A stretch of 64,000 nt of DNA from positions 124,001-188,000 of the forward strand of contig RSEE01000060.1 of the NCBI GenBank assembly GCA_003971905.1. The letters are read 5' to 3'. This DNA is from Moniliella sp. 'wahieum' (Eukaryota; Basidiomycota; Moniliellomycetes; Moniliellales; Moniliellaceae). Below are positions 3,776 through 47,800 of this stretch, piece after piece. Made by a program: the position numbers and the translations under genes. The notes beneath the pieces are model-generated. The model was not told the DNA's origin, did not search any database, and saw only the letters and a program-made list of their open reading frames with translations. Position 1 is the first letter of the stretch. Every line of letters begins with the position of its first letter.

Positions 3776-4600
3776 TACGCAGCAGCCATATTATGCATGA
3801 CCTCCTTCTTTGAAACCGAATCCCTCTCAAAGCGTGTGGTCCACATTCATTCCGGATCCTCCAAACGCCCCTGGGCCCATCATGTACAACTCACAGTGGT
3901 CTTGTGCGGACGGGCACGGGCGCCCGAGTGATTCCTCCGGGTTCCGTTCCCAGTCCGGCGCGTTCCGCTTTCTCTTCTTGTCATCCATCTGTTTACACCT
4001 CTGTCTGTCTGCGCTGCACCAGCACAATTAAAGTCTATAGTACGGTCGGTATTCCGGCCTTCCTCACACGCTGCGTCTTGTCCTTTCTCCTTTCCATCTA
4101 CAGCTGCGGCACGCTGAGAACACGTGTGGGGTCCCGGACGGATCGCAGGAGCTGGAGGATATGGTCCGTCACACACTACCCTCGGGGAACGCACGAAGAA
4201 TTGGATTGAGGGGGGTGCTAATGCGATAATGCCAAGATGTGCTCAATCGATAGCATCGATAACATCAGACCACACTTGCACTTGTTGCGCGAAGAACGGC
4301 ACGGAGGGTATACGCTGGCGTACGACGGAGCTGGAGAGGCCAATCTGAATCAGTTTCCCTTGTCGGTGATGGGCTGGCTTGTGACACTTGATGGCTGCTG
4401 TGGCATTGAAGAGGGAAGCCAATAGTAGTTGAACCTATTGCCTCTCAACAACCGTATTGCGACCATCCGCCTCGTACAAACGGTTATACGTGCCGTTCTT
4501 AGGAGGCCGCCATTTAATGACAAGGTATCGGCGGTGTGGTAGCGCCTGAGGATGTCATCGATTGCCATCGTGTCTTCTGATGTCATCGTCAGACACTCTG
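3776..4600. other. Intergenic, possibly degenerate coding remains
   Basis: Short ORFs on both strands with no recognisable domain. A purine/pyrimidine mix unlike the repeat zone that follows. It may be the remainder of the relic at 3530-3775. Confidence 0.25.
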
Positions 4601-4689
4601 CGTTGCAAGTTACATGTTACACGTCAGCGGTACACGTCACACGTCCCATCCCCAGAATGTCACACGCACTGTCTGGGTCCGGTGAGAAA

Positions 4690-4717
4690 GATGCATGATG
4701 TATGATGCATGATGCCA
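4690..4717. repeat. Heptamer array (GATGCAT type, 4 units)
   Basis: Units at 4690, 4697, 4704 and 4711 read GATGCAT, GATGTAT, GATGCAT and GATGCCA. The core palindrome is ATGCAT. Confidence 0.85.
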
Positions 4718-4884
4718 TTGTATCCAACAGGCAACTGGAGTGGCTACTGCGTCGGCCGTTGACGCGTTGACGTTTGAAATTTGACGCGTGACGCCCTTGA
4801 CGCTCTGTGCCGATGGGTGTGGCTGAGGAAGCCAGGGTCGTCAGGGACACGAGTGCCGGTCTGGGCCGGCGTACCGCGACCAAT

Positions 4885-4905
4885 GATTATCGATTATCGA
4901 TTATC
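4885..4905. repeat. Heptamer array (GATTATC, 3 units)
   Basis: Three perfect GATTATC units. Each junction recreates the ATCGAT palindrome. The next 40 bases hold GAGCATGT and GAGCGCT units in loose tandem. Confidence 0.85.
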
Positions 4906-5302
4906 AATGACCCGGGTGCCATGTGAGCATGTGAGCGCTGAGCATGTGAGCGTGCCTGTACGCAGGACTTGCCAGGAGAAACGAGCGAGCCGCGCTGAGG
5001 TGGCGCAGCGCGTTCAACCTGGGCAGCGCCCAGGCGCTCGGAGTGTTGGTTCAGTACGTTGAGCGTTGAACTTGGGCCGGCTTGAGCACGTTGAACACGT
5101 TGATGCGTTGACGCAGTTGGTGGTGCGTTGGCGTTGAACGTTGATATATGATAGCTAGTACGTGCTGGTCTGTCTTCCGACGGGATATCCGATACTCGAT
5201 CTCAACAGATCTCTACGTCAATAACGTTCAGCTCGATCTGAGATTTAGACGTTGAACCCATCCCAGATCTCAACGATCTCAATTTCTCTCTCAACCCACC
5301 GT

Positions 5303-5359
5303 AGCTTGAAGCTTGAAGCTTGACCGGTGACCGGCTTGACGCGTGACGCGTGACGCGCG
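5303..5359. repeat. Compound heptamer array: AGCTTGA, CCGGTGA, CGCGTGA
   Basis: Consecutive units AGCTTGA (5303, 5310, 5317), CCGGTGA (5324), CCGGCTTGA (5331), CGCGTGA (5340, 5347) and CGCGCG. The TGA portion stays fixed while the palindromic core switches from AAGCTT to ACCGGT to ACGCGT. All units are 7 bp except one 9-bp unit. Confidence 0.85.
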
Positions 5360-5759
5360 CCGTGAGACGGCGTGACAACGTGACAGCATAACGGCGTGAT
5401 CGGGTGATCGGTCGATGACCAGTGCCGTTGGCCAGGAACGACGGGCAAGCATACCGCACACCTCGAACTGTCGCGTGTGCGCCATGTTTCGTTCTTATTT
5501 TGCCGGGCAACACGGTGAACTAGGCAAGCCAGGATGTGCCAGTGCAGGCCAGCGCCTGAGGCTTGAAGCCTCCCCAAATGTGGAATCTGGGTAGGGTGTG
5601 CGTCTGGTGCCGCATATGGTGGATGGCGTTTGGCGTTTCTCTCAGCCGCTCAGCGTCACGCGTTACCGGCTCAGCTTAGCGCTTAACCAAATTAATCAAT
5701 GGCGGATACAGGTGGTCACCGGTCAGAGGTCAAATATCGATCTATCGGCGAGAGATATT

Positions 5760-5787
5760 CGTTGAACGTTGAATGTGGAACGTGGAA
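5760..5787. repeat. Heptamer array (CGTTGAA/CGTGGAA)
   Basis: Units CGTTGAA, CGTTGAA, TGTGGAA and CGTGGAA in phase at 5760, 5767, 5774 and 5781, followed by the palindrome TTAATTAA. Confidence 0.8.
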
Positions 5788-6153
5788 CTAATTAATTCGA
5801 TGCAGGCGCGCGTGGCCCTGTGGGGCTACGCCGTGCTACGCCCCCCGGCGCCACATGCCCAATCTGGATAGTAGCGGGTCAGCGGCTGAGCGCTGAGCCT
5901 GAGCGTGCAAGCAGAGCAGATGCAAGCGCCAAGCCGAAACAGAGCCCGGGGCGGATGCTGCGCGCTGGAATCTGGAATCGCATGTGAGTGAGATGGTGAC
6001 ATCTAAGACCAAGGTCTGACATATCACTGTGACATGTGCCGCTCTAGACGCTCCAAGCCGAACCTGCCGCCCCCATGTTCACCGGTCACCCGCTCACGCG
6101 TTCGCCTGCTCACGCTCACGCTGCTGAACAGCGACTAGCGACCAGTGCCGCAT

Positions 6154-6188
6154 TGCATGATGCATGATGCATGATGGATGGTGCATGG
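6154..6188. repeat. Heptamer array (TGCATGA type, 5 units)
   Basis: TGCATGA at 6154, 6161 and 6168, then TGGATGG and TGCATGG in the same phase. The core palindrome is ATGCAT. The same unit recurs near 7112-7131, 8940 and 42252. Confidence 0.85.
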
Positions 6189-6246
6189 TGTGATACCACG
6201 CCGTTGTATATTCCTAACTTGGGACCTGCGACAGGTAAAGCTGTAA

Positions 6247-6345
6247 ATGTAAAGCTTGTAAAGCTTGAAGCTTGAAGGCTTGAAGCTTCACTTGAAGGGT
6301 TACCGGTTACTGGTTACCTTACCGGTTGGGCCGATGATCGAAGAT
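6247..6345. repeat. Mixed AAGCTT / ACCGGT / ATCGAT repeat cluster
   Basis: Tandem GTAAAGCTT and GAAGCTT units are followed by TTACCGG, TTACTGG, TTACC and TTACCGG units and then GATCGA-type units. It is another cluster in which one palindromic core gives way to the next. Confidence 0.7.
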
Positions 6346-6431
6346 CGATGACTAGGATGCCTAGCATCTAACAACTCGCATACCACAATCTCCCATGCCA
6401 CCGGCCCCACCAGGCTACCAAGGTTACCCGC

Positions 6432-6459
6432 GTCACACGTCACATGTCACATGTCACAG
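6432..6459. repeat. Heptamer array (GTCACAT, 4 units)
   Basis: GTCACAC, GTCACAT, GTCACAT and GTCACAG at 6432, 6439, 6446 and 6453. The core palindrome across junctions is ACATGT. Confidence 0.85.
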
Positions 6460-6662
6460 GCCGTGAAGGGTATATCACGCTCGTAGCACACTCTCGCACA
6501 CTCCCTCACTGCGTTTGAACTGGCATGGCCACCACTCTCGCGCCCTTTGCCCGGCTGGCGAATGCATTCCCAGAAGTGCGACACTGCTCTCCACCTGTCA
6601 CATGCTATGTCACACTCACACGTCATCCGTCCCATATTCCCGGTTCCCTGTATAGGTCACTG

Positions 6663-6697
6663 CTTAGTACTTAGTACTTAGTATTTACTAGTCACTG
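6663..6697. repeat. Heptamer array (CTTAGTA, then TTTACTA, GTCACTG)
   Basis: Three perfect CTTAGTA units, then TTTACTA and GTCACTG, all at 7-bp spacing. The core palindrome across junctions is AGTACT. Confidence 0.85.
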
Positions 6698-6740
6698 GGT
6701 CAGGCCGGTCTCTGGCCGCCGCCTGCTGCCGCTCGCCTCA

Positions 6741-6774
6741 AGCTTCAAGCTTCAAGTGCGGTCACCGGTCACCG
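6741..6774. repeat. Compound heptamer array (AGCTTCA, GTCACCG)
   Basis: AGCTTCA twice, a 6-bp remnant, then GTCACCG twice. The cores are AAGCTT and GGTCACC/ACCGGT. A TCTCAGATCT-type run follows at 6781-6815. Confidence 0.85.
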
Positions 6775-6790
6775 TTTGCTTCTCAGAATC

Positions 6791-7354
6791 TCAGATCTCT
6801 CGGATCTGAGATTCGAGAGCACACGCTCCATCGCAGCCTGGTGGGGCAGGCTGACGCGCAGCCGAGGGCAATGCGGGTTAAGGAACGTTCCTGGCTGGCG
6901 GCTGCTGCCTGCTGCGGGCTCCCCGCCCCCGGGCAGGGTTCAGTGTTCGGCTTGCCCAGCGAGGCGGCAGGCACCAGGCAAGCATCATGCACCGCACGTC
7001 AGGTATCCGTGCATCAGCCACAGACGCACCCGGGCAGCCGAACCCATGCGCGCACTGGGCTACTGCGCCTGCCGGGCCGCCTGTGGATTGCCGGGCGCAT
7101 GTGCTTGTCCGTGCATGATGCATGATGCATGTCAGCCGCTCAGCGCTCAGGCTGAGCCTCACGCTCCCGCATCGCCGCCCGCAGTGCGCTCCAGTGCCGC
7201 TCAAGCCGCGCCCTGCCCTGCCTTTTCACCCATCCTGCCGCGCTTCCCACGGGCTCAGCCAGGCCCAGGCCCAGGCCCAGCTGCCCAGCTTAACCACCGC
7301 TGCGCCTCGCTCCCTCTTGTCGTGCCCACCGCCACCTCCCCCGCTGCTGCTGCC
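6791..7354. other. Intergenic / leader region, no gene recognised
   Basis: GC-rich. Contains a further heptamer patch at 7112-7160 (TGCATGA, CTCAGCG and CTCAGGC units) and a CAGGCC repeat near 7260. The long reading frames here are proline-rich and probably open only through base composition. Confidence 0.35.
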
Positions 7355-7737
7355 ATGGTTGCCACCTCCCACCCCGCCCCACACGCCCTTCCCTCCGCCG
7401 CCGCCTCACCCACCCCACCTCAGCCTCAGCCTCCGCCTCCGCCTCCAGCTCCTCGGCTCGCGTGCGCAGCTCCACCACCACCGCCGCCTCCGTGCCCCTT
7501 CTGGCACCTGTCCCCCGTCGGGCCTCCTTCATCCACCGCCCCAAGGTCATGCGTTCCCATGCCGCCTCCGTTCCCTCCAGGCCCACCACCCCGTGCACCC
7601 AACTGGCTGCCTCGCTCCAGAATGTGAGCTTGCACGCCCCCCTCCCGGCTCCACCGGTCGTACGCCCATCAGCGCCCCTTCGCCCACTGCCCCCCCGCCG
7701 CCCGTCGTTGGAATCCGCTTCGCTTCCTTCGTTTTGA
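7355..7737 (+). CDS. Possible Ser/Pro/Ala-rich protein, one frameshift
   Basis: An ATG at 7355 opens MVATSHPAPHALPSAAASP. After about 20 codons the strongly G/C-third-position frame is the next one, reading [18 protein letters not shown], then RRASFIHRPKVMRSHAASV and on to a TGA at 7735. One extra C in the run near 7400 would join them into a protein of about 127 residues. No domain is recognised. The arginine- and serine-rich pattern could be a transit peptide or a disordered regulator. Low confidence because GC-rich leaders here produce long chance frames. Confidence 0.28.
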
Positions 7738-9058
7738 TTGACTGCGATGGCCACGGACCTACCCCACCCCGGACGCCGAGGCATCGTTCCAGCCTGTGGT
7801 CTGCCTGTCCCCTACACTGCTTCACCCATCCCAACTCTCCGCTCTCCCGTTTTTCCCCCCCGCTCATACCTACCTGTACCATCAGCGCTTGCCTACCCCA
7901 CCGCCACGCCCCCTGCCAAGGACTCCTCCCCGCTCCCCCATTCCTCGCTCCTGCACACGAAACCCATTGGCAGCAGCCTTTTCCGCACCACGGTCCACCA
8001 CGCCTGTTCCTGGGCAAGTACTGGGCTTGGAACTGGGCTGCCCTGCCCCCTGGGCGCACCTCGACGTACGTGCTTGATGGTCTTCCCGCTTTTCCACATA
8101 CAGAAGTGATCCCAAGCCCTGGGCCGGGCCATCCTGCTCCTTACCACGTACAAACGACGGGAGGACACAAGACACAAGGACCATTCTCCTTATCCTCCTT
8201 TGCCCGTTCGTTTCTCGTTCGTCGGGGCATCTACCCCTGCTTTTTGTTTACGACTTCTTCCTCTATTCCCTTCCCCCCCCCTCCCCTTCACCTCTGTGCC
8301 CACGAGCCACCCACTGTCTGTACAACTGTTTTTTTGCCTTGGTAGTGGCCTTGACTTGGCCCTACCTGCTGTACAACTCATACCATGCGTGCCCTATCCG
8401 GCTCAATGACTGCTTTCCTAGCCTCTTCTTTCGGCTCTCAGTGCATATAGATGGCATCGACCTAGGATTGATTGGCTAACGAGGGCAGGGGAGGGGAGAG
8501 TGCGCTACGCACTATGTCCGTTATGGCGACCGATAGGCACGAGTGGTAGGTATGACAGACGGTGACCGGTGAGGCCCTAATGAGAGAAAGGAAAGAGGGC
8601 GAGGATTATGGGAGAATGATGCATTTCTGAATCGATTCGTGCACAATTAGTAGGTAGAGGGAGTTCCTGGTTGTGCCTACCAATTGGTGCATTGGCTGAG
8701 CAAGGGCGTAGTGGGGGACGAGCGCGGCTGGTGCAGCTGATGAAATGAGGAAGTCCCTTTGAGCAGGGTGCGAACCGCATGGTCCCAAGAAACGAGAGAG
8801 AGCGACAGGTGGTGCTGATTGCCGTGCGGAAGCAGTCGGCAGCGACAGAGCGGCCGTCGTAACATGACAGGGGGACGGGAGGACACCCAATGTGATGAAC
8901 CTTTCAAAGCCTAAACGGGGGTCACGTGCCGCGGGTTCTGATGCATGATGAATGAGCATGAGCGGAAGTCGCTCTTCGGCGGGGTTCCGCCGATTTTCCA
9001 TTTTAGTCGCCGAGCGCGGACGCGACGACCGGTCGCGACCAACCCCCACCACCACCAC
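7738..9058. other. Unresolved GC-rich stretch before U2AF35
   Basis: Long open frames continue to 8345 with proline/histidine-rich translations and no domain. A GTACGT...ACAG intron-like segment lies at about 8068-8107. From 8400 to 9058 there is a heptamer patch at 8940-8960 (GATGCAT, GATGAAT) and no convincing gene. This includes the U2AF35 promoter. Confidence 0.3.
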
Positions 9059-21726: not shown

Positions 21727-22713
21727 TTATTGAGTTTGGGGTCCGTACCCCCTCAAGCCCTCGGCAAAGCCCCACTCAGTCTCGTTCGACTTGGGCACCT
21801 CGTCAATCTCGACGCCTTCCTTGGTGGCCTTGGCAAAGATGAACCGGTTGATTGAGCGGGCATCGCGGTAAAACAGGATCCGGAGACAATCTTGCAGGAT
21901 CTGTTTCGCCTCGGCTTCGGTCAATTCGGTTTCACGTCCTACCACGCTCTTGCGCAACAAGGGGATGGCAATGTGCAATCCAAACCCAGTCGCAATCACC
22001 GACGAGGTGTACGTCGTGCCGAGCAAATCAACAAACCCAAGGAACGACTCTCCTGTCGTTTGGTCCACCCCACCCAAGACATAGGCGTTCCAGAGCGGGT
22101 TCATCTTGGACCGTCGTTGGTACATCACCCGGGATAGGTAGGCGTACACTTGGTCTGGCGACAACGGCTGGTCGTCCTCATTCGACTCTTTGATCCTACA
22201 ATGCGAACAAGGGGAAGGGGAGGAAAGAGGAGAGGAGAGCAGAGGAGAGGGAGGAGAGGAGAGGAGAGGAGAGGAGAGGAGAGGAGAGGAGAGGAGAGGA
22301 GAGAGAGATAAGAGAGGTCAGTACGTTGCAACTCCACTTCTCCCTTGACAACCAAAGGAGGAGAAAAGGGGACGGGACGTACATGAGCTTCTCAGCATGG
22401 TTGGGTGTATGAAAGTCGGACATGTCCCCGCTCGCACCGAGGATGGTGTTGGCGCCCACATTGACAATCCGGCGAATGTCCATGAACCGAGCCAGGGAGC
22501 CATACGAAGCAAGGGGTGTCGGCCGCAAGCAAAACGCCGTCCTTGTACTTGATGCCAAGCACCGACGTGCCCGTCACGATCGGTTGTGAGTATGCTGCAC
22601 GCTTCGGCAAAGCTGTCCTTGGCACCGGCGCGCGCATAGTCAGGACCAGCGACGGTGCGGGGGGTGGAGGACCAGGCCTGGCCAGGGAAGTGCGAGGGGG
22701 TGGTGAACTGCAT
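21727..22713 (-). CDS. PRE4: 20S proteasome subunit beta type-7 (Pre4/PSMB4)
   Basis: A non-catalytic beta subunit of the core particle. The N-terminal propeptide-like stretch (MQFTTPSHFPGQAWSS) leads to QPIVTGTSVLGIKYKDGVLLAAD, then ASYGSLARFMDIRRIV. After the intron come NPLWNAYVLGGVDQ, GESFLGFVDLLGTTY, CLRILFYRDARSINRF and KEGVEIDEVP, all typical of PSMB4. Exon 1 is 22383-22713 and exon 2 is 21727-22195. The 187-nt intron (donor GTACGT, end TGTAG) carries a long GGAGA repeat on the plus strand, a CTCTCC polypyrimidine tract in sense. Indels: one extra C near 22514 and one near 22590. Start 22713 is the first ATG compatible with homologs. Confidence 0.93.
22246..22310. repeat. Pentanucleotide (GGAGA)n inside the PRE4 intron
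   Basis: About twelve nearly perfect GGAGA units on the plus strand. In the transcript it is a CTCTCC tract near the 3' half of the intron. Confidence 0.85.
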
Positions 22714-37400: not shown

Positions 37401-40400
37401 TGCAACAAGAGGTTGTCCATCTCTTCCCGTCCATCCACCTTGCCCAACATCTCAGCACACCTCCGATCCTCTTCGCGCAACCTTGCTTCGGCCGACTCGA
37501 GGCGGCGCTCAAATGCGGAAAAGAGGCCTTCGCGCTCGGCCAAAATCCTTCGTTCGGCCGCAACAGCCAACTCGAGCTGCCGCAGCCCTCGCTCCGCCTC
37601 GTCTGCCCGTCGTACAGCCTCGTCCCGTTCGTCCCGCTGCTCCTGGACCAGCCGATCGGCATGCGTCCGGAACGCACGCAACTCGCCAACATGCTTTTCT
37701 TGCTCTGCCATCTCTTGCTCCCGTTGGGCCAAGGCGGCCTCCAACTCGGTTCGGACCGCTTCGTGCTGCGCCGTAGCCAAGGCCAGGTCCTCCCTTGCCT
37801 CCTCGGCCGCCCGCTGCGCCGCACGTAGATCCGCCTCGACCTCTGCAAGCCGATGCAACGAACCCACGTCCGACGCTGCTTGCTCTTGCGCAGCCACAAG
37901 CGCCTGATGAGCTTTTTGCTCCGCTTGGCGCGCCGCGACCAACGCCCTGCTCGTCTCGAGCGACTCGGCACGCAACGCATGGTGCGTATCGAGTAACTCG
38001 CGATGCGCATGACGCAGTTCGTCCAATTTGCCCTCGGCCAACTGCGCACGGAGGTGCGCCGGCGCGCCCGCCGTACCGTCGTTCGACCCATCTTGCCCAG
38101 AAGCCGAGCCGGGCACCAAAGGTGGCGAAACCATCTGCCACTCCCCCTGGGTCCCCGTCGACTCGCTGTGCACCGGTCCGACCTCGCGCGTCAAAGGTCG
38201 AGATGGGTCGGAGGAGTCGGAGGGGGCGGAGGGGTCGGCAGTAGACAGGCCGCGGAGCGTAGCCCCATGTTCCGCTTGCCCGTCTAGCACCGATTGCCTC
38301 CACCGCTCGGCCTCGGCTTTGGCGTGGGCCGCCTCGGCCCGAGCTGCCTCCAGTTCCTCCGTGAGCGAGGCGAGCGTCGTGGCAGTCGTGGCAGTCGTGC
38401 CCGTGGGCGCAGCAGGAGAAGGGGGACGGACCGCACGGGAAGCTGGACAACCGCCTCCAACCGGTTCGCGAGCGAATTGAGCTGGTCCTCAGCCTGGTCG
38501 GCAGCGCGTTGCAGCGTGTCTCGCATCTGCCTCTCGGCCTTCTCGGCTGCTTCGGCACGGGCTGTGGCTTGAGCCAGCGCAGCGGCGTCTCCGGCGTCTT
38601 CCGCGTCCAAGGTGGAACGAGAAAGAGAACGGGTGGGAGAAGGAGGATTGGGAGAGGCGGCAAGCTGCTGTTGCAATGCCTCTTTGGTAGATACGAGTTG
38701 GTCCCGCTCTTGCTCCCATGCCAAAGCACGTTGGGCCAGCTGAGCATGGTCCGCTTTGTCCTGGTCCCACGAAGCTTGCCCTTCCTCCCTTTTGCGCTCG
38801 GCCTCTGCTACTGCCTCCTCCAGCTCCTGCACGCGACGGCGTAACGTCTCCCTCTCGGCGGACAGGTCGGACTGGGCGGCTTGCAGAGTAGCATGGGTGG
38901 AAAGTAGATCGGTATGTTGCTGTGCCATCTCCTCGTGGGTGTCCGTGAGCGCACGGTGGGACTGTTCCAGGTCCTGGTGTTGCTCCAGCAGCGCTGCATG
39001 CATCTCCTTGGCCACGTCCCGTTCGCCTTGGAGATGCGTCTGGGTCTCGAGGAGAGTCTGGTGAGCCTGCGTCAGCTCCTCGTGCTTCGTGCGCCAGGCA
39101 TCTCGTTCCTCTACGACCGAAGCATGCTCGGCTTGCAACTGATCCCGCGCGTGCGTGAGTTGGGCCAGGTCGCGTGCCAGCGCGTCAACTTGGGCTTGAG
39201 CTTGGTCCTGCGCCTCCCGCAACGCCTGTGTCCACCGCTGTTCCTCTTGCTCAGCACGAAGCAGGTGCTGTCGATTTGCCTCGGCATGGTCTGCGTCGCG
39301 TTGAGCCAGCTCCGTCTGGTGTGCCTTCTGCGCCCGTTCGTTCGCCTCCACTTGGGCAGCGTGCTCGGCTTGCCAGTGCGCCACTTGCTGTTCGAACGCC
39401 GTGCGTTCGGCCAAATGCTGCGCGACCAACGTCGCATTTTCGGTCGCCGCCTTGCGCGCTCGGTCCAGCTCGCTCTCCATGCTCCCAGCACGCAACGCAA
39501 TGATCTGCATCGCCTTGGCGAACGAAATGGACTCCGAATCACTCGAACTGGGCGGCGAAGCCAACGCCGCAGCCGTAGCGGCAGCCATCAACGTGTCGGC
39601 CCCTGCGTCCGTACCTGCCGTGGCCAAAGTCGAACATGCCTCGGGCTCTGCCTTGGACGGTACCTGGGGCACGATCTCAGGCTGCAAGGAACTGGGCATG
39701 TCGGGCCCGTTGGCCCCGCCTGCCTCGCCGGCAGGACCAGGAGAAAGGGAGGAGGGCAAGCGTGCCAGTTGGCGGGAGCGGGCAGCTGAGTGGTGTGCGA
39801 CCAACGCTTTGCGCAGCCCGGCAGCCTTGTCCGTCAAGGCCGCAGCTTGGTCGGTAGCTTGGGCAGCCTGAGCCGCGGCCAACTTAGTTTGGGCATCGGC
39901 CAATTCGGCGCGCAACAGCGCCATCCGACTTTCTGTCCGATCCGCCCCGGGCGAGGTACTGCTGCAGCTCGACCTGGGACGGGCAGCAGGCAAAGAAAGG
40001 GAGAGAGAGCCCGTGGAAGCGTACCCGGCCGACGGCGAGGCCGACGAGAAGGAGTGATCGGGTTCGGCCTCCTCTGGGTCCGTAAGCTCTTCCACATGGT
40101 CCGGGTCGGCTGGTAAGGCCAAGGTGGACCCGGGAGGGACGAGAGCCAGCGGGGGAGGCGGAGCGCGCGCAATCGGGCAAGGTACCTTGGCGAACAAGGG
40201 GTGTAGCACCCGGGGTGGTGCCGGGGGACAAGCCTTCGGTTGAAGGGACCGGCGGCGGTGGACCAGGGGTGGGACCGGCACGCAGACTGGGCAAGGGCGC
40301 CATGCCAAATGGATCGTCAAGTACGTCCAGGTGCATGGGCAGGAGCGGATGCAAGCCCCTTGGTCCCTCTTCGGCTTCGGGGCCATCGTCGGTATCGGTC

Positions 40401-41237
40401 GGGTGGGCTTCGCTGTCGCTCTCCTGGAGTGGGTGCTGCCACCAGCCTGGTTCGGCTGAGCTGGAACGCGAAGCGGGGGCGGACGAGGCAGAGGGGCTGT
40501 CGACGTCGGCGTCCCCGTCGGCGTCGGCATCGGCAGGGTGGGAGTAGATGTCGAGCGCAGCGTCCAGCAGCGACGCACGCGACGGTCGCCAGGGAGATGG
40601 GGCGGAGAGGGGGGGGGAAGGGGTGGTACTGCTGGCGCCGATGGCCGAGCCGGCCAGCACGTCAAGGGCCGTGTAGTGGGCGGGGGGGACGCAGCCCGTC
40701 GGACGCACTGAAGCTCGAGGGGCGCACGGTGGGTGTGGAGAGGGACCCGGTGCGTTGCTCTGTTGCCTGGGTCGGGCTCACCTGGCTCAGGCTCAGGCCC
40801 AGGCCCAGGCCGAGACCGAGGCCCACGGGGGCGGGCTGGGGTCAGCGTCGAGGGCGAGGGCGGGCGCAAGCGCGGGCAGGGGCGGCAGGTCGAGGGGCCC
40901 GCGGGGCAGAGGCGGTGGGTCCGAGTCGCGTGCACGCGCCTGGAGTTCGTGGAAGCTGAGCAGACGTGCGCGGGAGGGGCGGGCTATGCGGGACTGTCGG
41001 ACGGCGTGGACGATGGCGTGGGCGTGCTCGTCGTCGTCGTCGATCGTCGTCGTCGTCGTCGTCGTCGTCGTTGCCGCTGGCGTCGTCGGGGGTGGGGGAG
41101 GAGTGGCGGTCGGGGGAGGGGGTGTGCTGCAGGGGCTCGTCGGCAGCGCGGGGGATGGGGCTGATGGAGGAGGAGGAGGAGGGGGACGAGCGTGGCGGGA
41201 AGACAAAGGTGGCCATGGAGTCCAGCGCGCGTGCCAT
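34435..41237 (-). CDS. Giant coiled-coil protein (about 2,200 aa), family unresolved
   Basis: The start MARALDSMATFVFPPRSSP leads to an Asp run and RARLLSFHELQARARD. Then come a Ser/Pro/Asp-rich N-terminal third and about 1,300 residues of nearly unbroken coiled coil rich in Glu, Gln, Ala and Arg (HQDLEQSHRALTDTHEEMAQ, ARLREEDRRCAEMLGKVDG, VAELETRLVSALRADK). The C-terminal part is disordered (RKSFKLQPVPPVARIFEP) with a last helix (LSLRVRDLDDTVVTLEAEKR). One intron, 35291-35401 (donor GTATGT, end ACCAG). At least six frame changes by single-base indels, for example near 41050, 40790, 38290, 37020, 36200 and 35800. Length and layout suggest a golgin, spindle-pole or nuclear-migration scaffold. 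I see no GRIP, PH or motor domain. Confidence 0.75.
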
Positions 41238-41245
41238 GTTGCAGC

Positions 41246-41262
41246 GGGGGGGGGGGGGGGGG
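41246..41262 (-). promoter_or_regulatory. Poly(C) tract in coiled-coil gene leader
   Basis: G17 on the plus strand, C17 in sense, ending 9 bp before the ATG at 41237. Confidence 0.6.
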
Positions 41263-42705
41263 CGCACACGACCAGGGCCAAGGGAGCGGACGCGGCGGAG
41301 GGGATGGAGGGGGGTGGGGTGGAGGTGGTGGGGGTGCCGGCGCGACGGGAAGGGACGGACGCAGGGCGTGCGTGCTGGAGCGAGGCGCAGTGGCTGGTGA
41401 CTGGGAGTGCATGTTAGCTGGGTGCGGGATGCATGAATGCGGTGCGCTGTGCCTGCCTGGGCGCATGCCACGTGCCAGCCGCAGGAAGCGCCCGCACAGC
41501 GCCAGTGTGCCGCGTGCGATCGGCAGCCCGGCCGGTGGGCCTGCGGTGGACACGCGTAGGGTTGCGGCGCGCACACTGCCCGCCTGCCGCCGCCCGCGCC
41601 GCGGCGCCGCGGTGGAGCACGCCGGAGCACACACGCCCGCTTGTGCGCCCTGGTGCGCACGACGCGCCGGGTGGGTGCTGCGGGTGTGCGCTGCGCCCCC
41701 TGGCCCGCGCCTCTGCAACAGCGGGCTCGTGTGGCCAGGGTCCGCTGCGTGTCTGCTGTGGCTCGGCCTGCTGGCTGCACTGCACGCCGCCCACACGCTG
41801 GCTCAGCACTGCTCCTCAGCCCCCCCATCCGCCCTCCGGCTTCTCCCGCCTCCACTCTCCATCCCCACCCGCTCCCACTCCCATCCCTCCATGGTGCCCA
41901 CCCTCCCCATCCACCTTCCCCAGTATGCAGTGCCTCCTTTTCTCTGTGTCCGCTCGCCATCCGTCGTTTAGCGTTCAGCCTGAACGTGAGTCAGCCTTGA
42001 AGCTTCACGTTCAACTTGAACGTCAACGTCAACGTCATGTCGTCAACGCGTCACGCGTCAACCCGCAACGGGAACGTCACGGCTAGTCATTACTGTACTC
42101 ATAATCATTAAGCTTCGCCCCCCCTTTTCTGATAGCGGCGTAACGCGTATTACGCGTAAACGCATAAGCGAGATAAGCGCACCGCGTTTAGCCCAAATGC
42201 GCTACGCGTTACGCGTTCCAACGCCCCCACTTGCCACTGGCCACTGGCCAAGCATCATGCATCATGCCACTAAGCACATCAGCGCATCCCCCTGCACTCT
42301 CCTCGTCCTAATCCACACCTGGCAAATTCGCATCTCTCGGCTGCCATCGCCACCCCATCTACCCCACACGCGTCTTCATAACGTCGTCCAACCTTACCGG
42401 TTACCGGTTAGGCCGTCGATCATCGCCGCCAGCGTCACCTGCATTGCAGACGAACACCCCCCTTCCGTCCGATCCCCACACAGGTCATCATCAGCTCGAG
42501 CGGCCGAAACCTACTCTGATCTACATGTGCCGACATCACATCACGAATGATGTGATGTGATGCCACCAAGAATCCGAGAGTCCTGCTGGAATCTCTGTTG
42601 AGAGTTGCCGTACATGCCACATGCACTGTGTGCAAAAGCACAATCCTTAATCCTCTCTCTGTAAGGTTACCCACCCCTCCTCTTCCTATCTCCCTTTTCC
42701 ATGCA
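41263..42705. other. Intergenic: GC-rich promoter then heptamer repeats
   Basis: 41263-41940 is very GC-rich with long chance frames on both strands. From 41960 the heptamer repeats begin. No gene recognised. Confidence 0.45.
41985..42265. repeat. Cluster of palindromic short repeats (AACGTT, ACGCGT, CCACTGG, GCATCAT)
   Basis: ACGTCA-type units near 42010-42035, CACGCGTCA at 42045, TAACGCG/TTACGCG units at 42140-42165 and 42203-42216, CCACTGG twice at 42234 and 42241, and GCATCAT twice at 42252 and 42259. A TTACCGG pair lies further on at about 42397-42411. Confidence 0.8.
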
Positions 42706-42792
42706 TCCTCGATGGTCCAACGGCTATGATGTGACGCTCTCACTGCACTTGCAGCAACCGTCAAGACCCGGGTTCGACTCCCGGTCGGGGAA
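42706..42792 (+). tRNA. tRNA-Glu(CTC) with a 15-nt intron
   Basis: The acceptor TCCTCGA pairs with TCGGGGA, with discriminator A at 42792. The T arm is CCGGG-TTCGACT-CCCGG. The anticodon stem is TGACG/CGTCA with loop CTCTCAC and anticodon CTC at 42739-42741. Between position 37 and 38 lies a 15-nt intron (42743-42757) containing CTGCACTTGCAG. A T5 Pol III terminator follows at 42795. Confidence 0.93.
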
Positions 42793-43255
42793 TCTTTTTC
42801 ATGGAACGCCTCAGTCTTCGTTTGTGAGCGGTCACGGCATAGACCATCCACAAAGCTCTCATCGCCTTTGGCCAAGCCGTCATTCATATTTTTTCAATGA
42901 CGAAAAGTGACACTGCACTCCAAAAAAGCACCATTGGAAAACGAAGCAGCTGGCGTAAACGAAACATCTGCCTTTGATCTGTGGTATCCGTATCGTCCGA
43001 CCTCTCTGGAGGTGCGAAGATGAGAACGGAGAACTGGGGAGAAACGATAGACGAAAAGTACGCTGTGTGGTGCCCCACAGAATACACATGATATACTACC
43101 TCTTTCGATGCCATCCACTCAATTGCCTTGGGAGAGACTTTCATCGGCTCCCACTTCGGAGAAACACGCCTACATACTGGCCTTAGGCTAAGCGCTGCTG
43201 AGGGCTGAGGCGATGAGGAGGGATTGAGAGGACGTTGGCCAAATCATTAATCACA

Positions 43256-43345
43256 GAAGCCACCCACGGTGGCTCAGCGCTGCTCAGCCTGAGCGCTGAG
43301 GCTCAGCGCTAAACGCTCAACGCTCTCTCAACGTTCACCTAAGCC
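43256..43345. repeat. Decayed AGCGCT repeat cluster
   Basis: Repeated GCTCAGC, CTGAGCG and GCTCAGCGCT units, on both orientations, then CAACGCT/CAACGTT units. Confidence 0.75.
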
Positions 43346-43907
43346 TCAGCGAACAACTTTGAGGCTCAGCACCCCCCTCCATCATATTGCACTTGTTCGG
43401 CACATCCTCCCCTCCTCCCCCACACACACTAAGCCATAAGCGATCTATCTACCGCCCTTGCACCTTGCCCTCTCGTTGTAAGTACAACTCACGCGTTGCT
43501 GAAAAAAAGAGTACATCATGCCATGGTCCACCTCTCCCGCGTTTCCTCTATTGTTCTTTTTCCACAGACGGCTCTCAAGAGATCTGAGAGCATGGGCGTC
43601 CCAGATAGAGAACCCACACATTGAAGCTTTTGGATCGGTTCCCGCACGGCCTTGTGCAACGCGCGCACCACCCGCTCGGATCGGTTTTTGGGTGTCGGAT
43701 AATCCAAATGCCAAACCACACCACACACGAAGAATTCCAAGATGTAAGATGTGGCCTCAATCGCATAATATCGCAAACTGTATATATACTGGGCCCAGGA
43801 GTCAAAGATGGCAGTTGCACGACTTGGAGGCAGGAATGAAGATAAGGTTGTAATCCCTGGAGATCTGAAAAGAGTATAGCAGGCAACCTGTCATAGTTAG
43901 GCTGATC

Positions 43908-43935
43908 GATCTGAGATCTGAGATCTGAGATCTGA
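43908..43935. repeat. Heptamer array (GATCTGA, 4 perfect units)
   Basis: Perfect units at 43908, 43915, 43922 and 43929. The core palindrome is AGATCT. Confidence 0.9.
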
Positions 43936-44668
43936 TCTCGCTCTCAGCATTTCCAATTTCTTCGTCCCGAACGTCTCTCGCACTTTCTCTGTCTTTCCTC
44001 CGCTTCGCACCATGTCCTCTGCTCTTGCCTCTTCCCCCCACGAACGATTGCTACATACCTGCACCTGGTCTTGACTATGGTCTCATTCGCCCTTAGCGCC
44101 GACTTGTGGCAACCAAAGCCCTTCTTCGTCATTCTCTGCATCTTGCCGTTGTCGCAGCATCATGTAGTCGTTGCGGCCAGTGCCAGTGATGGCCACGTAA
44201 AAAGGGTTTTCAACGATTAAGCGTAAGGTTGAACTTCAACGTTCAAATTTCAAACGAACAGCGGATGCGTGTGTGGGGCATCTCTGAGATCTGCAGCCCT
44301 GCACGGCCAGCACCCAGTCAGAAAATTACGCCACGACGGTACGTGTGGCCACTACGGCGTACGGAGAAGACAGAGTGTGCGGTGGTGAGCAACAGCACGA
44401 GTAACTGAGTACTGGGTACTGATGTGGCATACCTTCTACCGAGTGCTACTGGGGCTGATGCACTGGCGCATGATGGTATTGTGGTTCGCTGCTGTAGTGA
44501 TGCTAGTGATGGGGGTGGATGGATATTGTGGGTGCTCATGGCGCTCATGCACTCATGGTGCATGACTAACACAACTCATCGTTTTGAATGTGTTTCGCGT
44601 TGCCGCGCAGGTGTTGGACAATGTTGACGCGTTGACGACGTTTGCCACAGTTTGCCACAATAAGGCCA

Positions 44669-44748
44669 TTGAACGTTGAACGTTGAGTTGAATGTTGACC
44701 CACAACGGTTACCGGGTACCGGTTATCAGCTTGAAGCTTGAAGCTTTC
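44669..44748. repeat. Two adjacent heptamer arrays with unit switching
   Basis: TTGAACG twice at 44669 and 44676, then TTGAG, TTGAATG, TTGACC. Then from 44707, six units in strict 7-bp phase: GGTTACC, GGGTACC, GGTTATC, AGCTTGA, AGCTTGA, AGCTTTC. Confidence 0.88.
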
Positions 44749-45236
44749 CTATTACTTGCGGTTACCGCGGTTATAATATACCCTCAGCCAGGGGTCGTTA
44801 TCATGCAGATCATGTGAATCAACCCAAGTTAAGTACTACTCCGGCATAACAACTACTACCGTTGCATCCGGGTAGAACTGAAGCTCAGGCCTGACACAGT
44901 GGCAGCTTGACTAATAGAACAGATTCACGATGCAATGGTCTCCTGGGAACTTGAAGCTCTCTCCTGAGAGCGCCTGTGCCATGTACCATGGGATATGGAC
45001 CTCGTGCCCATGTCATGCCGCCGGCCACAGAGAATTGCGCCCTAATACTACTACTACATCATCATATAGGCGCAGCCACAACAGCAGCGCCGCACCCGAA
45101 GAGAAGAGAGCGCCCAACCCCCCGTGAGGCCGTGAGGCCTCAGCCTGAAGCCTGAGGCACAGCAGGGGCAAAACAGCGAGTCGCACAGCAGCACACACGC
45201 CTTCTGCCTATAACCCACGAGGATCGGGTGGGAAAA

Positions 45237-45278
45237 CTGAGTACTGAAGCTTGAAGCTTGAAGCTTGAAGCGCGATTA
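45237..45278. repeat. Heptamer array (CTGAGTA, CTGAAGC, TTGAAGC x3, GCGATTA)
   Basis: Six consecutive 7-bp units from 45237. The palindrome at the junctions changes from AGTACT to AAGCTT. Confidence 0.88.
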
Positions 45279-45737
45279 AGCTAACCCACAACACGCCCTG
45301 CCGCAGCAGCTGGAAGCACACAAGTAAATAGACAAACTACACTGTGTGCTCTTCGGCTCTCTGTGGTGCTGGTAGCACAGCTATACCACTATTAGGATCA
45401 CTTTCATTCTCGCGGTCCCACATGTCACAGCTCCATAACCCCTCTTTTTCACCAATTCCATCTCCCGCCGCCCCCCCTCCTCTCCCTCCTCTCCTCCCTC
45501 CTCATCTCTTGTTGCCATCAATAGTTGTCCTGCTCCCTGTTGTTGGCTCAGTGTCTCGCCCATCGGCGCTCACGACACTCCCCTCACCGGCTTCACCCAT
45601 CCATCCTCGCCCTCTCCGTCTGCAATACCACCAGTGGCTTATGCAGTTGAGCACACGTCTCTCTCCCCCACTACTCTCTTCGCCGCCCGTGCTCCGCCAT
45701 ATGCCTGACGCCCAACTGCGCCTACTCCCCCCCTAAG

Positions 45738-46393
45738 TTGCTATCCTGCCCTCTCCCCGACACCGAATCGAGCCCCGAAAACCTGTCCGTCTCCACACCC
45801 CATACCGACGTGTACCGGGCGGGCTCCGAGGGCAAAAACCACTGCTGGCAGCATTGCTGGCATTCCACCCCGTTCTCCATTCCTTCCTGCTCGCCATGCG
45901 CGCTTGACAAACTGGAAGCTCTTCTCGATCGAATGGAGCACATGCCCTCTCCGCTTCTCCCGCCCTATTTTTGCCTTGCACCTTCCCCCACACGCCCCCG
46001 CTCGAGTTCGCGGGAACCAAACGAGGGCCATCAGGGCTCCCTGGGGCGACCTTGGTACTTTCGTCCCGTCGACGGAACAGATCGAGATCCACGCTCAAAT
46101 TGGAACGGGCAAGTCCACCCGCCGGCTCGGCGTCGCAACTCTCGCCAGCTTTGTGCTGGGCCCCCACTCACCTCTCTCCACCCCGCCATTCCCTTGCCCC
46201 TCGATCCGGGCACGGCACCGTCGTTCGCCTTCTCGTGCCGCACCCCATGATGGAAACCAAGACCAATCCCAATGCCACGACCAATCCAATCCCAATCCCA
46301 AGATGTTCTTCATTCTCCAATGGCGTACGGACGTCTTCCTCAGCACTTCCCGATGCGGCGCCTCCTAACTATAACATTGGCCCTCTCTCCTAA
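45738..46393 (+). CDS. Possible gene, frame unresolved
   Basis: Coding-like composition on the plus strand, with plausible stretches in two frames: SVSTPHTDVYRAGSEGKN and ALDKLEALLDRMEHMP in one, ERASPPAGSASQLSPALC and SSSALPDAAPPNYNIGPLS (stop 46391-46393) in another. A single indel could join them. No family recognised. The minus-strand frame through the same DNA is also long, so strand is uncertain. Confidence 0.25.
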
Positions 46394-46780
46394 TAGCTTA
46401 TGCTCTGACTTTGCTGTTGCTCTCTATAAGTTTTTGTGTTGCCCTGTGCATTTGCATCCTGTGAATATACCCATATCACGTTATCTACACGTCCCTTCTG
46501 TTATGTACCTTTTCTTCCGTCTCTTCTCGCCCTTCGTTTCATCCCACATGCTCATATTCCACTGAGTTGCACGGGATATAGTACAATCTGTCTTTCATTT
46601 CCAGCACAGCGGTCCCTATTCCCAAACGGTGACAACCATATGTATGCGCATGCCTTATGCCTCTTCTCTATCCCTCTCCCTTCTCTCTTTTTATTATACG
46701 CGAGGAGACACCGGGCTAGGCGGGCCGGTCAGCTGGGGATTCGCCCCAGCTTGGTGCTGCTCACCACCGTCGCACCGCAC
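46394..46780. other. Intergenic, AT-richer
   Basis: No gene recognised. It reads as a 3' UTR or promoter-like region. Confidence 0.35.
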
Positions 46781-46782
46781 AC

Positions 46783-46836
46783 CACATCGCCACCGTCACC
46801 ACCATCGCCACCGTAGCCACCGTCGCCACCGTTCCC
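46783..46836. repeat. ACC/GTC-rich triplet repeat
   Basis: Imperfect GCCACCGTC/ACCACCATC units, about six copies, all multiples of 3 bp. Confidence 0.7.
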
Positions 46837-47560
46837 CCGAGATAATGTCACGAACGCTGGTGTAGGTGCGCAAAAAGGGATTGCAGCATATATGCCGGGG
46901 GATGTTCATGATGGACGCCGGGATGATGTATTGAGTGATTGACCCAGGGTAGTTGGGCCATTTGAGGCTTGGGCTTCGGGATCCATGAGCCAGAGCTGCG
47001 CATAGCGAGGTCCATTCCAGTGTTGTTCCGGCGGTGCGGGTCCGGGTTGCGGTCATGGTACGTGGCAGGATAAATTAAGGGTCCAACTGCAGTATAAGTG
47101 GTGCCATGAAGGACCAAAGAATACACTCTCCAACAGTGTTTGCCAAGGGATGTCGTATTTGGCAATCCATGAGGTGAGAAGGCCATCAACGTTCCATTGT
47201 ACATACGTTTTTGGACAACTCTTCTGTGGCTCGACGGAAGCCGTAACGGATGCGTCCAAAAAGTTTGGACAGGGGCGGGCATGGCTTAGGATTGGGAATG
47301 TTCACCTTGCCTACATGCTGAGCGTTAGAAGAGCAGGGCAGAAAAGAGGAAGATGAACACACCTTGGCTGCAGCGTAGAAAGAACGGGGATTTGATTGGG
47401 ACGAATTATAAACACGTTCTTCTGCAAACATGTAAGCGTTGGAGTAACGGCATATATGATCTTCCCAATGACAATTTGAGCGTGTTGGAAGTTCTCACCC
47501 ACAATAGGAATAACGCATCGGCCTCGATCCACAGGCTGGATAATTGACGGCCACACCGAA
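46815..47560 (-). pseudogene. Possible broken gene of lower GC, unidentified
   Basis: On the minus strand, protein-like segments succeed one another in different frames: QHAQIVIGKIIYAVTPTL, CPKTYVQWNVDGLLTSWIAK, YDIPWQTLLESVFFGPSWHH, TTLEWTSLCAALAHGS and YPGSITQYIIPASIMNIPR. Codon use is less G/C-biased than in the neighbours. I do not recognise the family. It could be a decayed gene, a transferred sequence or a multi-exon gene broken by indels. Confidence 0.25.
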
Positions 47561-47629
47561 AGGCATGACGGCCCAGGGCACAACCCAATGCATGGCCATT
47601 GGAGACACAATTGGGATAGTGTCTCCCTC

Positions 47630-47800
47630 AGAGAGAGACCTGGACCCTGGTCCTCACGAGCCAGCCTGCCCTTTGGTGCTTCCCAAAGAGCGAGATACTT
47701 GCGCACAAGCTTCGTTAGTCAACGTACTGCCGAGCTGTTAGTCAATGTACCGACCAGCCTGCTCTCTGGTGCTTCCCTCAGAGAGACTCTTGCAGCCTTT
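47630..47800. repeat. Imperfect direct repeats of about 40 bp
   Basis: A block starting CCAGCCTG and ending ACTTGC at 47661-47703 recurs at about 47755-47795 as CCAGCCTG...CTCTTGC. CCCTCAGAGAGA occurs at 47627 and again at 47776. GTTAGTCAACGTAC (47716) recurs as GTTAGTCAATGTAC (47739). Confidence 0.6.

Follow-up and report, generated by a model that had tools for sequence, protein, structure and literature searches.

A flank-dictated rewrite rule for palindromic 7-bp units around TNA in the intergenic DNA of Moniliella sp. 'wahieum'

Several transposons (Tc4/Tc5, PIF/Harbinger, IS1031) make 3-bp target duplications of the sequence TNA or TWA. In yeast top2 mutants, trapped topoisomerase II gives de novo duplications of 2-4 bp by way of a 4-nt overhang (signature ID17), according to the available portion of PMC11477040, and templated and snapback insertions are described in the accessible part of PMC7454005 as a hallmark of joining by DNA polymerase theta (POLQ). 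Here we analyse a 64,000-nucleotide stretch of the Moniliella sp. 'wahieum' genome (the window; C60:124001-188000, on contig RSEE01000060.1, in an assembly of 69.5 Mb and 223 contigs), the intergenic DNA of which contains many tandem arrays of 7-bp units with palindromic cores. These arrays obey one rewrite rule, which has two forms: a seed xy-TNA-zw becomes xyTNA-y'x'-xyTNA in the left form and TNAzw-w'z'-TNAzw in the right form. In either case a five-base segment is duplicated with two inverted bases as filler between its copies, a net addition of 7 bp, so that the flanking dinucleotide dictates the core.

Transposon excision footprints resemble these units in carrying TNA on either side of a short palindrome; footprints of terminal inverted repeats, however, hold one constant palindrome, whereas the cores described here are many and are dictated by the host flank. 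Heptanucleotide microsatellites likewise consist of tandem 7-bp units whose copy number differs between alleles, but in the present case the unit is constrained by its flank, single units occur, and two cores can share one phase. The topoisomerase II duplications are similar in that a staggered break, overhang fill-in and end joining yield short duplications without a prior repeat; they are plain and 2-4 bp long in the portion of PMC11477040 available, in contrast to the 7 bp, the inverted filler and the TNA requirement found here. A need for an NHEJ ligase and a Pol4-type polymerase is a further mark of that signature. POLQ insertions are short inserts copied in direct or inverted orientation from the neighbourhood of the break, much as our filler inverts the adjacent dinucleotide, but their length and position vary (PMC7454005, accessible part), whereas here length and motif are fixed and the rule iterates. 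These two are the closest described processes, and neither is described with the 5+2 TNA geometry in the available parts of those sources. A literature search, with subscription papers and preprints outside its reach, listed no title that describes this insertion pattern and returned nothing on TNA target duplications; the accessible part of a review of short tandem repeats across life (PMC12699852) does not mention the word "heptanucleotide".

Besides the window, we read a sample of 20 unselected 10-kb stretches (L013-L032) from contigs C1-C14, the round coordinates of which were fixed before reading. Window and sample together make up 264 kb; evidence from second copies (alleles) covers about 20 kb, or 19,748 aligned columns. 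Defining an array as an exact period-7 run of at least 17 bp, we found 17 arrays in the window, in agreement with a preliminary description that had counted at least 15 strict 7-bp arrays with palindromic cores, and all 17 contain a 6-bp palindrome in some rotation. As that description had also stated, the palindrome nearly always begins with A and ends with T (16/17; only TGGCCAC, at 42233-42250, departs from this). Eight of these arrays begin within 4600-6790 (Table 1). Among the cores it had listed, AGCGCT occurs in the window as single units and forms no array of this length there. Outside the window 21 of 42 arrays are palindromic, compared with 10.4% of all primitive heptamers, which brings the total to 59 arrays, 38 of them with a 6-bp palindrome and 37 of these of the form A....T. 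In the genome as a whole, three copies of TGACGCG, with at most 3 mismatches, have 1043 + 1079 = 2,122 matches against 27 + 15 = 42 for the reversed pattern. The other 21 of the 42 outside arrays are non-palindromic and include the two longest, AAGCACC (L013 9014-9123, 110 bp) and ACACAGG (L030 5257-5357, 101 bp), both of which lie outside the rewrite rule.

The constrained object is smaller than an array: it consists of a 4-bp palindrome between two TNA trinucleotides, and many such TNA-pal4-TNA units stand singly, outside arrays. Window and sample hold 243 units, where 20 local first-order shuffles average 28.1 and never exceed 36; N is the same on both sides in 197 of the 243. The same motif is reached without assumptions. 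When 4-bp cores are scanned for every one of the 64 x 64 pairs of flanking trinucleotides, those on top are TGA..TGA (83/143 palindromic), TCA..TCA (83/158), TTA..TTA (20/34) and TAA..TAA (11/25), the base rate being 5.8%. The TGA and TCA junctions had thus been recognized correctly in the preliminary description, but the seventh base is not only G or C, and TNA, which takes in TTA and TAA, fits better. Palindromic cores occur in 197 of 360 equal-N TNA pairs (22.5 expected), whereas nine other XNY flank classes reach only 1.8-7.7%, from ANT (3/167) to TNG (31/403), with CNG at 32/466 and GNC at 27/567. For other filler lengths between equal-N TNA, palindromes number 32/106 at 2 bp (26.5 expected), 8/246 at 6 bp (3.8 expected), 1/136 at 8 bp (0.5 expected) and 0/125 at 10 bp (0.1 expected). 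The palindrome between the TNA flanks must therefore be 4 bp long. The earlier view that these are no ordinary microsatellites is borne out by these counts and by the flank constraint on the unit; palindromic cores are far over-represented, genome-wide as well.

In single units the dinucleotide left of the first TNA repeats the second half of the core, or that right of the last TNA repeats its first half, so that the elementary product is 12 bp long, xyTNA-y'x'-xyTNA or its mirror form. Of the 115 single units whose N is equal, 91 follow the rule (about 12% would by chance), 42 on the left only, 34 on the right only and 15 on both sides; an alternative definition of "single" (n = 119) gives 46, 37 and 11, with 25 fitting on neither side. 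A further scan, made without reference to TNA, looked for short direct repeats in which the filler inverts the first bases of the repeat; repeat lengths from 4 to 9 and filler lengths from 1 to 6 were combined, 36 settings in all. The clearest excess is at 5+2, with 86 of 635 cases (13.5%) against an expected 6.25%, and the consensus NNTNA emerges unprompted from these 86 (T in 56, A in 60). Lesser departures are seen at 4+3 (42/1726, 27 expected) and 5+5 (6/503, 0.5 expected).

Because a dinucleotide flanks each TNA on either side, one chain may carry two cores in phase, the first set by the left flank and the last by the right. Window and sample contain 11 multi-core chains, every one with exactly one core switch. 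The left flank fits the first core in 10, the right flank fits the last core in 10, and both fit in 9; when first and last core are exchanged as a control, the fits are 0/11 and 0/11. Eight further chains from other loci, two of which (L037, L046) are second copies of sample loci or chains, behave similarly (left 6/8, right 7/8, both 5/8; 0 and 0 when exchanged). The order of cores in two-core chains shows that the rule predicts beyond the data on which it was built. A genome-wide search for TCTSANNNNTSANNNNTSACC finds 69 + 66 = 135 places, against 6 + 12 = 18 for the backward pattern. Order was counted in the 80 of 100 listed matches that are given with letters, 60 of them distinct, some overlapping within one array and one lying in L023. 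Among these 80, GATC, which the TC on the left dictates, occurs alone in the first place 13 times and alone in the second place never; CCGG, dictated by the right CC, stands alone in the second place 15 times and alone in the first 4 times. GATC followed by CCGG is found twice and the opposite order not once. The 25 listed matches with two palindromes comprise 15 with the predicted pair, 6 with one predicted core in its place and 4 with neither.

A second view of the units comes from the assembly itself, much of which is apparently doubled at a few per cent divergence, as the contig pairs C58/C60, C41/C42, C4/C16, C6/C83 and C12/C101 illustrate. The window segment 4000-8400 recurs collinearly on C58 (89% identity with gaps), the second copy of 40068-47630 was located by collinearity, and L014, L023, L030 and L032 have copies at 84-93% over most of their length; DNA comparison finds RPB1 and an actin gene doubled as well. 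Seven copy pairs are 93.3-98.2% identical when gaps are disregarded (2-7% divergence). We read the doubled loci as uncollapsed haplotypes or the subgenomes of a hybrid. Clean indels of 5, 6, 7, 8 and 9 bp between the copies number 6, 3, 9, 4 and 5. At three of the nine 7-bp indels (window 5676, L023 1871, L032 3549) a palindromic unit stands where the other copy has none; of the remainder, four alter the copy number of repeats already present, one plainly duplicates GAATCAT and one fits nothing. When units rather than indels are counted, 15 of 188 have the exact sequence less 7 bp in the other copy, against 69 of 18,628 control places, and 67 of 188 are intact there. Five of these 15 concern a single unit (GCTTA, CGTCA, TTACT, TAAAC and GCTCA).

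Judging from the pattern of letters, we propose, with about an even chance of being right, that the rule reflects recurrent mutation through staggered nicks or breaks around TNA, followed by fill-in that switches template from one TNA-bearing strand to another. The nick or break would fall two bases 5' of TNA, in one strand or in both, and would leave a 7-nt 5' overhang NNTNANN when both are cut; the nicked strand would thus begin 5'-xyTNA. Because TNA is self-complementary except for N, a filled-in 3' end could anneal to the TNA of the other strand. During fill-in, the new 3' end (...TNA) would quit its template, pair with TNA in the other overhang or flap, which has the same sense (T-A, an N.N mismatch, A-T), copy y'x' and halt at the 5' end of that strand, where the template runs out. 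Joining would give L-xyTNA-y'x'-xyTNA-R, and the mirror event the right form. Such fill-in would make the filler exactly two bases long and inverted, require TNA and preserve N. Each product has one extra TNA in the same heptad phase, and the rule can therefore act repeatedly; acting inside an array it would repeat the same core, and acting on an outer flank it would add a second one. A 7-nt stagger filled in without switching would leave plain duplications, and a weak excess of these is seen: TNA is central in 13 of 68 exact 7-bp tandem duplications (2.4 expected; 2-5 at other offsets). We had taken these 13 as strong support for the stagger, but as 5 of them are palindromic, only 8 non-palindromic cases stand against the 2.4 expected, and we downgraded the result accordingly. 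While the rule can be read off the letters, it is from the rule that we infer a cutting enzyme, gain rather than loss of units, and a recurrent mutational event rather than selection; we think that the units mostly do nothing for the cell. More tentative, and less likely than not, is the version in which a dedicated TNA-recognising cutter (a domesticated transposase, a homing-type nuclease or a topoisomerase) makes 7-nt 5' staggered cuts and template-switched fill-in then builds palindromic heptads, an autocatalytic rewriting of DNA that would have produced many thousands of units in non-coding sequence with no mobile element involved.

Several observations weigh against this account or narrow it. 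The rule is matched on neither side by 24 of the 115 single units, and the three-core chain GATC.CATG.CCGG (C22:115701-115728) violates the one-switch pattern. Since flanks differ between the copies, 106 of 188 units are not classable in the second copy. Three of the five single-unit events have a self-inverse dinucleotide (GC, CG, GC) and the TAAAC event may be a plain 7-bp duplication, so that TTACT-AG-TTACT alone is explained neither by a direct filler nor by plain duplication; moreover, a 7-bp deletion between two 5-bp repeats would leave the same letters as a gain. Further processes also operate besides the rule. Longer inserts between copies are mosaics with direct and inverted pieces of their surroundings. 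The 10-bp perfect palindromes TGA-pal4-TCA are above chance (10/42, base rate 5.8%), as are those of the form TCA-pal4-TGA sample-wide; both perhaps arise by simple inverted duplication of NNTNA. Finally, 6-bp repeats with one free base occur 180 times at distance 7, compared with 65-108 at most nearby distances. We considered this (6,1) class as a second insertion type and dropped the idea, as 86 of the 180 bear the mark of a point-mutated array; extended periodicity is found in 50 (6.5 expected), and the class consists mostly, but not wholly, of decayed arrays.

The main rival to template-switched fill-in is an end sealed as a hairpin by a transposase or nuclease, opened two bases off its tip and then joined (L-xyTNA + y'x'-xyTNA-R). 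It yields identical letters, 5 bp being duplicated and two inverted bases added from one end, and P nucleotides do arise in end processing by RAG, hAT transposases or Artemis. Such joins, however, usually vary in length and show deletions, whereas here only two inverted bases stand out, and a terminal-inverted-repeat footprint would leave a constant core instead of many that follow their flank. An exon-by-exon genome search for the PIF/Harbinger-type transposase family PF13359 gave 0 matches (other superfamilies were not searched), on which we discarded PIF/Harbinger footprints as the source, and no TNA-repeat-flanked insertion was recognised in the roughly 20 kb of aligned second copies. We regard hairpin opening as unlikely. 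Hairpin-assisted replication slippage, in which single-stranded heptamers expand more than others because their palindromic cores fold, would account for the whole-unit copy changes between copies (three for the AAGCTTG array and one for ATCGATT; Table 1) and for an insert in inverted orientation that adjoins a TGATGCA array in L037. Against it stand the flank rule, which already holds in most single units and on both sides of most two-core chains, and ANT-pal4-ANT, which makes an equally good palindrome and is not enriched; since slippage copies its neighbours directly, it cannot produce an inverted filler. Plain slippage as the origin of the units was therefore dropped, and in any form it seems improbable to us, although it may still alter the copy number of finished arrays.

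General templated insertion of the POLQ type at random breaks, with TNA as a favoured microhomology, would suit the mosaic nature of the longer inserts. Its insertions vary from 2 to 35 bp in the accessible part of PMC7454005, and random breaks would not be expected to yield a constant 5+2 geometry at TNA; we hold it to be quite improbable. The preliminary description had stressed that a palindromic core presents the same half-site on both strands every 7 bp, which would suggest arrays of selected transcription-factor sites. That the units lie in non-coding DNA and cluster beside genes would be in line with this. Their cores, however, are many and each is fixed by the adjacent dinucleotide, which is not what a binding site would predict, and only 49 of 134 units are shared between copies. 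Substitutions affect 60 of 877 columns in units and 295 of 5662 in the 60-bp flanks, while gapped columns amount to 29.5% and 9.4%, respectively; the units are indel hot spots and are not conserved. With no conservation above the flanks between copies, we abandoned conserved regulatory sites, and selection for binding appears very improbable.

If the proposal of recurrent staggered breakage with template-switched fill-in is true, a two-line mutational rule whose products are new substrates would allow intergenic sequence to be predicted to a large extent, which is rarely possible. Palindromic heptad arrays would be explained without selection, which calls for caution in reading them as regulatory motifs, and they would offer a natural, countable reporter of staggered-break repair in a fungus-like lineage. 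The density of 243 units per 264 kb, if typical, extrapolates to about 64,000 units in the assembly.

The units are unevenly distributed. In 400-bp bins ranked for coding-likeness by a self-trained coding model, which is weak and served solely as a ranking score, there are 57-58 units per 1,000 TNA in the least coding-like bins and 3.3 in the most coding-like. Their distribution over the non-coding bins is clustered, with a variance of 2.8 against a mean of 0.96, and 121 of 192 bins hold no unit (73.6 expected). Two domains together hold 60 of the 76 units of the window (Table 1); a Pfam search of the plus-strand ORF next to domain A gave no match.

Table 1. Arrays, chains, single units and array-rich domains in the window (window coordinates)
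Feature	Position	Strand	Remarks
Array-rich intergenic domain A	4610..7149		36/76 window units; upstream of + ORF 7122-8345
Array-rich intergenic domain B	41998..45268		24/76 window units; beside - ORF 40842-41960
ATCGATT array	4885..4905		second copy (L037) has one 7-bp copy fewer
AAGCTTG array	5303..5323		second copy (L037) longer by 21 bp (3 copies)
ACGCGTG array	5337..5357		exact period-7 run
ATGCATG array	6154..6176		exact period-7 run
AAGCTTG array	6261..6277		exact period-7 run
ACATGTC array	6439..6458		exact period-7 run
AGTACTT array	6663..6683		exact period-7 run
AAGCTTC array	6738..6756		exact period-7 run
AGATCTG array	43908..43935		shorter in second copy (L044)
Two-core chain TGA.AATT.TGA.CGCG.TGA	4775..4791	+	left flank TT, right flank CG; both fit the rule
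Two-core chain TGA.ACGT.TGA.TATA.TGA	5135..5151	+	flanks GT and TA; both fit the rule
Two-core chain TGA.AGCT.TGA.AGCT.TGA.CCGG.TGA	5307..5330	+	flanks CT and CC; both fit the rule
Two-core chain TCA.ACGT.TCA.AATT.TCA	44236..44252	+	right flank fits the rule, left flank does not
Two-core chain TGA.GTAC.TGA.(AGCT.TGA)x3	45238..45268	+	flanks AC and AG fit the rule; mostly gone in second copy (L044)
Single unit GCTTA-GC-GCTTA	5674..5685	+	second copy has GCTTA only; clean 7-bp indel
Single unit AATCA-TT-AATCA	43242..43253	+	not in second copy; flanks changed too, so no clean event

Apart from the units, the window contains a tRNA-Ala gene with an AGC anticodon at 845-941 (ARAGORN), a PAK-type kinase, Rpc34 and a NIPA transporter. 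The segment 42706-42794 is near-identical in both copies despite differing surroundings; it looks like a tRNA gene, perhaps for tRNA-Glu with an intron, although ARAGORN lists the tRNA-Ala only. An AGAGG tandem array of about 17 copies occupies 22226-22307. In the genome, actin-family matches appear in 69 rows, and Chitin_synth_2 matches with E < 1e-40 lie at no fewer than 16 places, some of which may be two copies of one gene; the solved RPB1 nearest to that of this genome is 3h0g, which we take to be the fission yeast protein. The genes show the DNA to be eukaryotic, and the chitin synthase and RPB1 matches make a fungal origin likely. Acanthamoeba, whose actin leads the solved structures in one search, was rejected as the source, since in another search with a single exon that actin is level with animal actins and its alignment shows clear differences. 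Near position 3613 of L032, one of the two copies (L047 versus L032) carries about 306 bp extra, in which no element was recognised, by AACGTTC and ATCGATG units. A repeat of about 480 bp at about 6480-6960 of L023 has, besides its second copy, five more copies in the genome at 86-90% identity.

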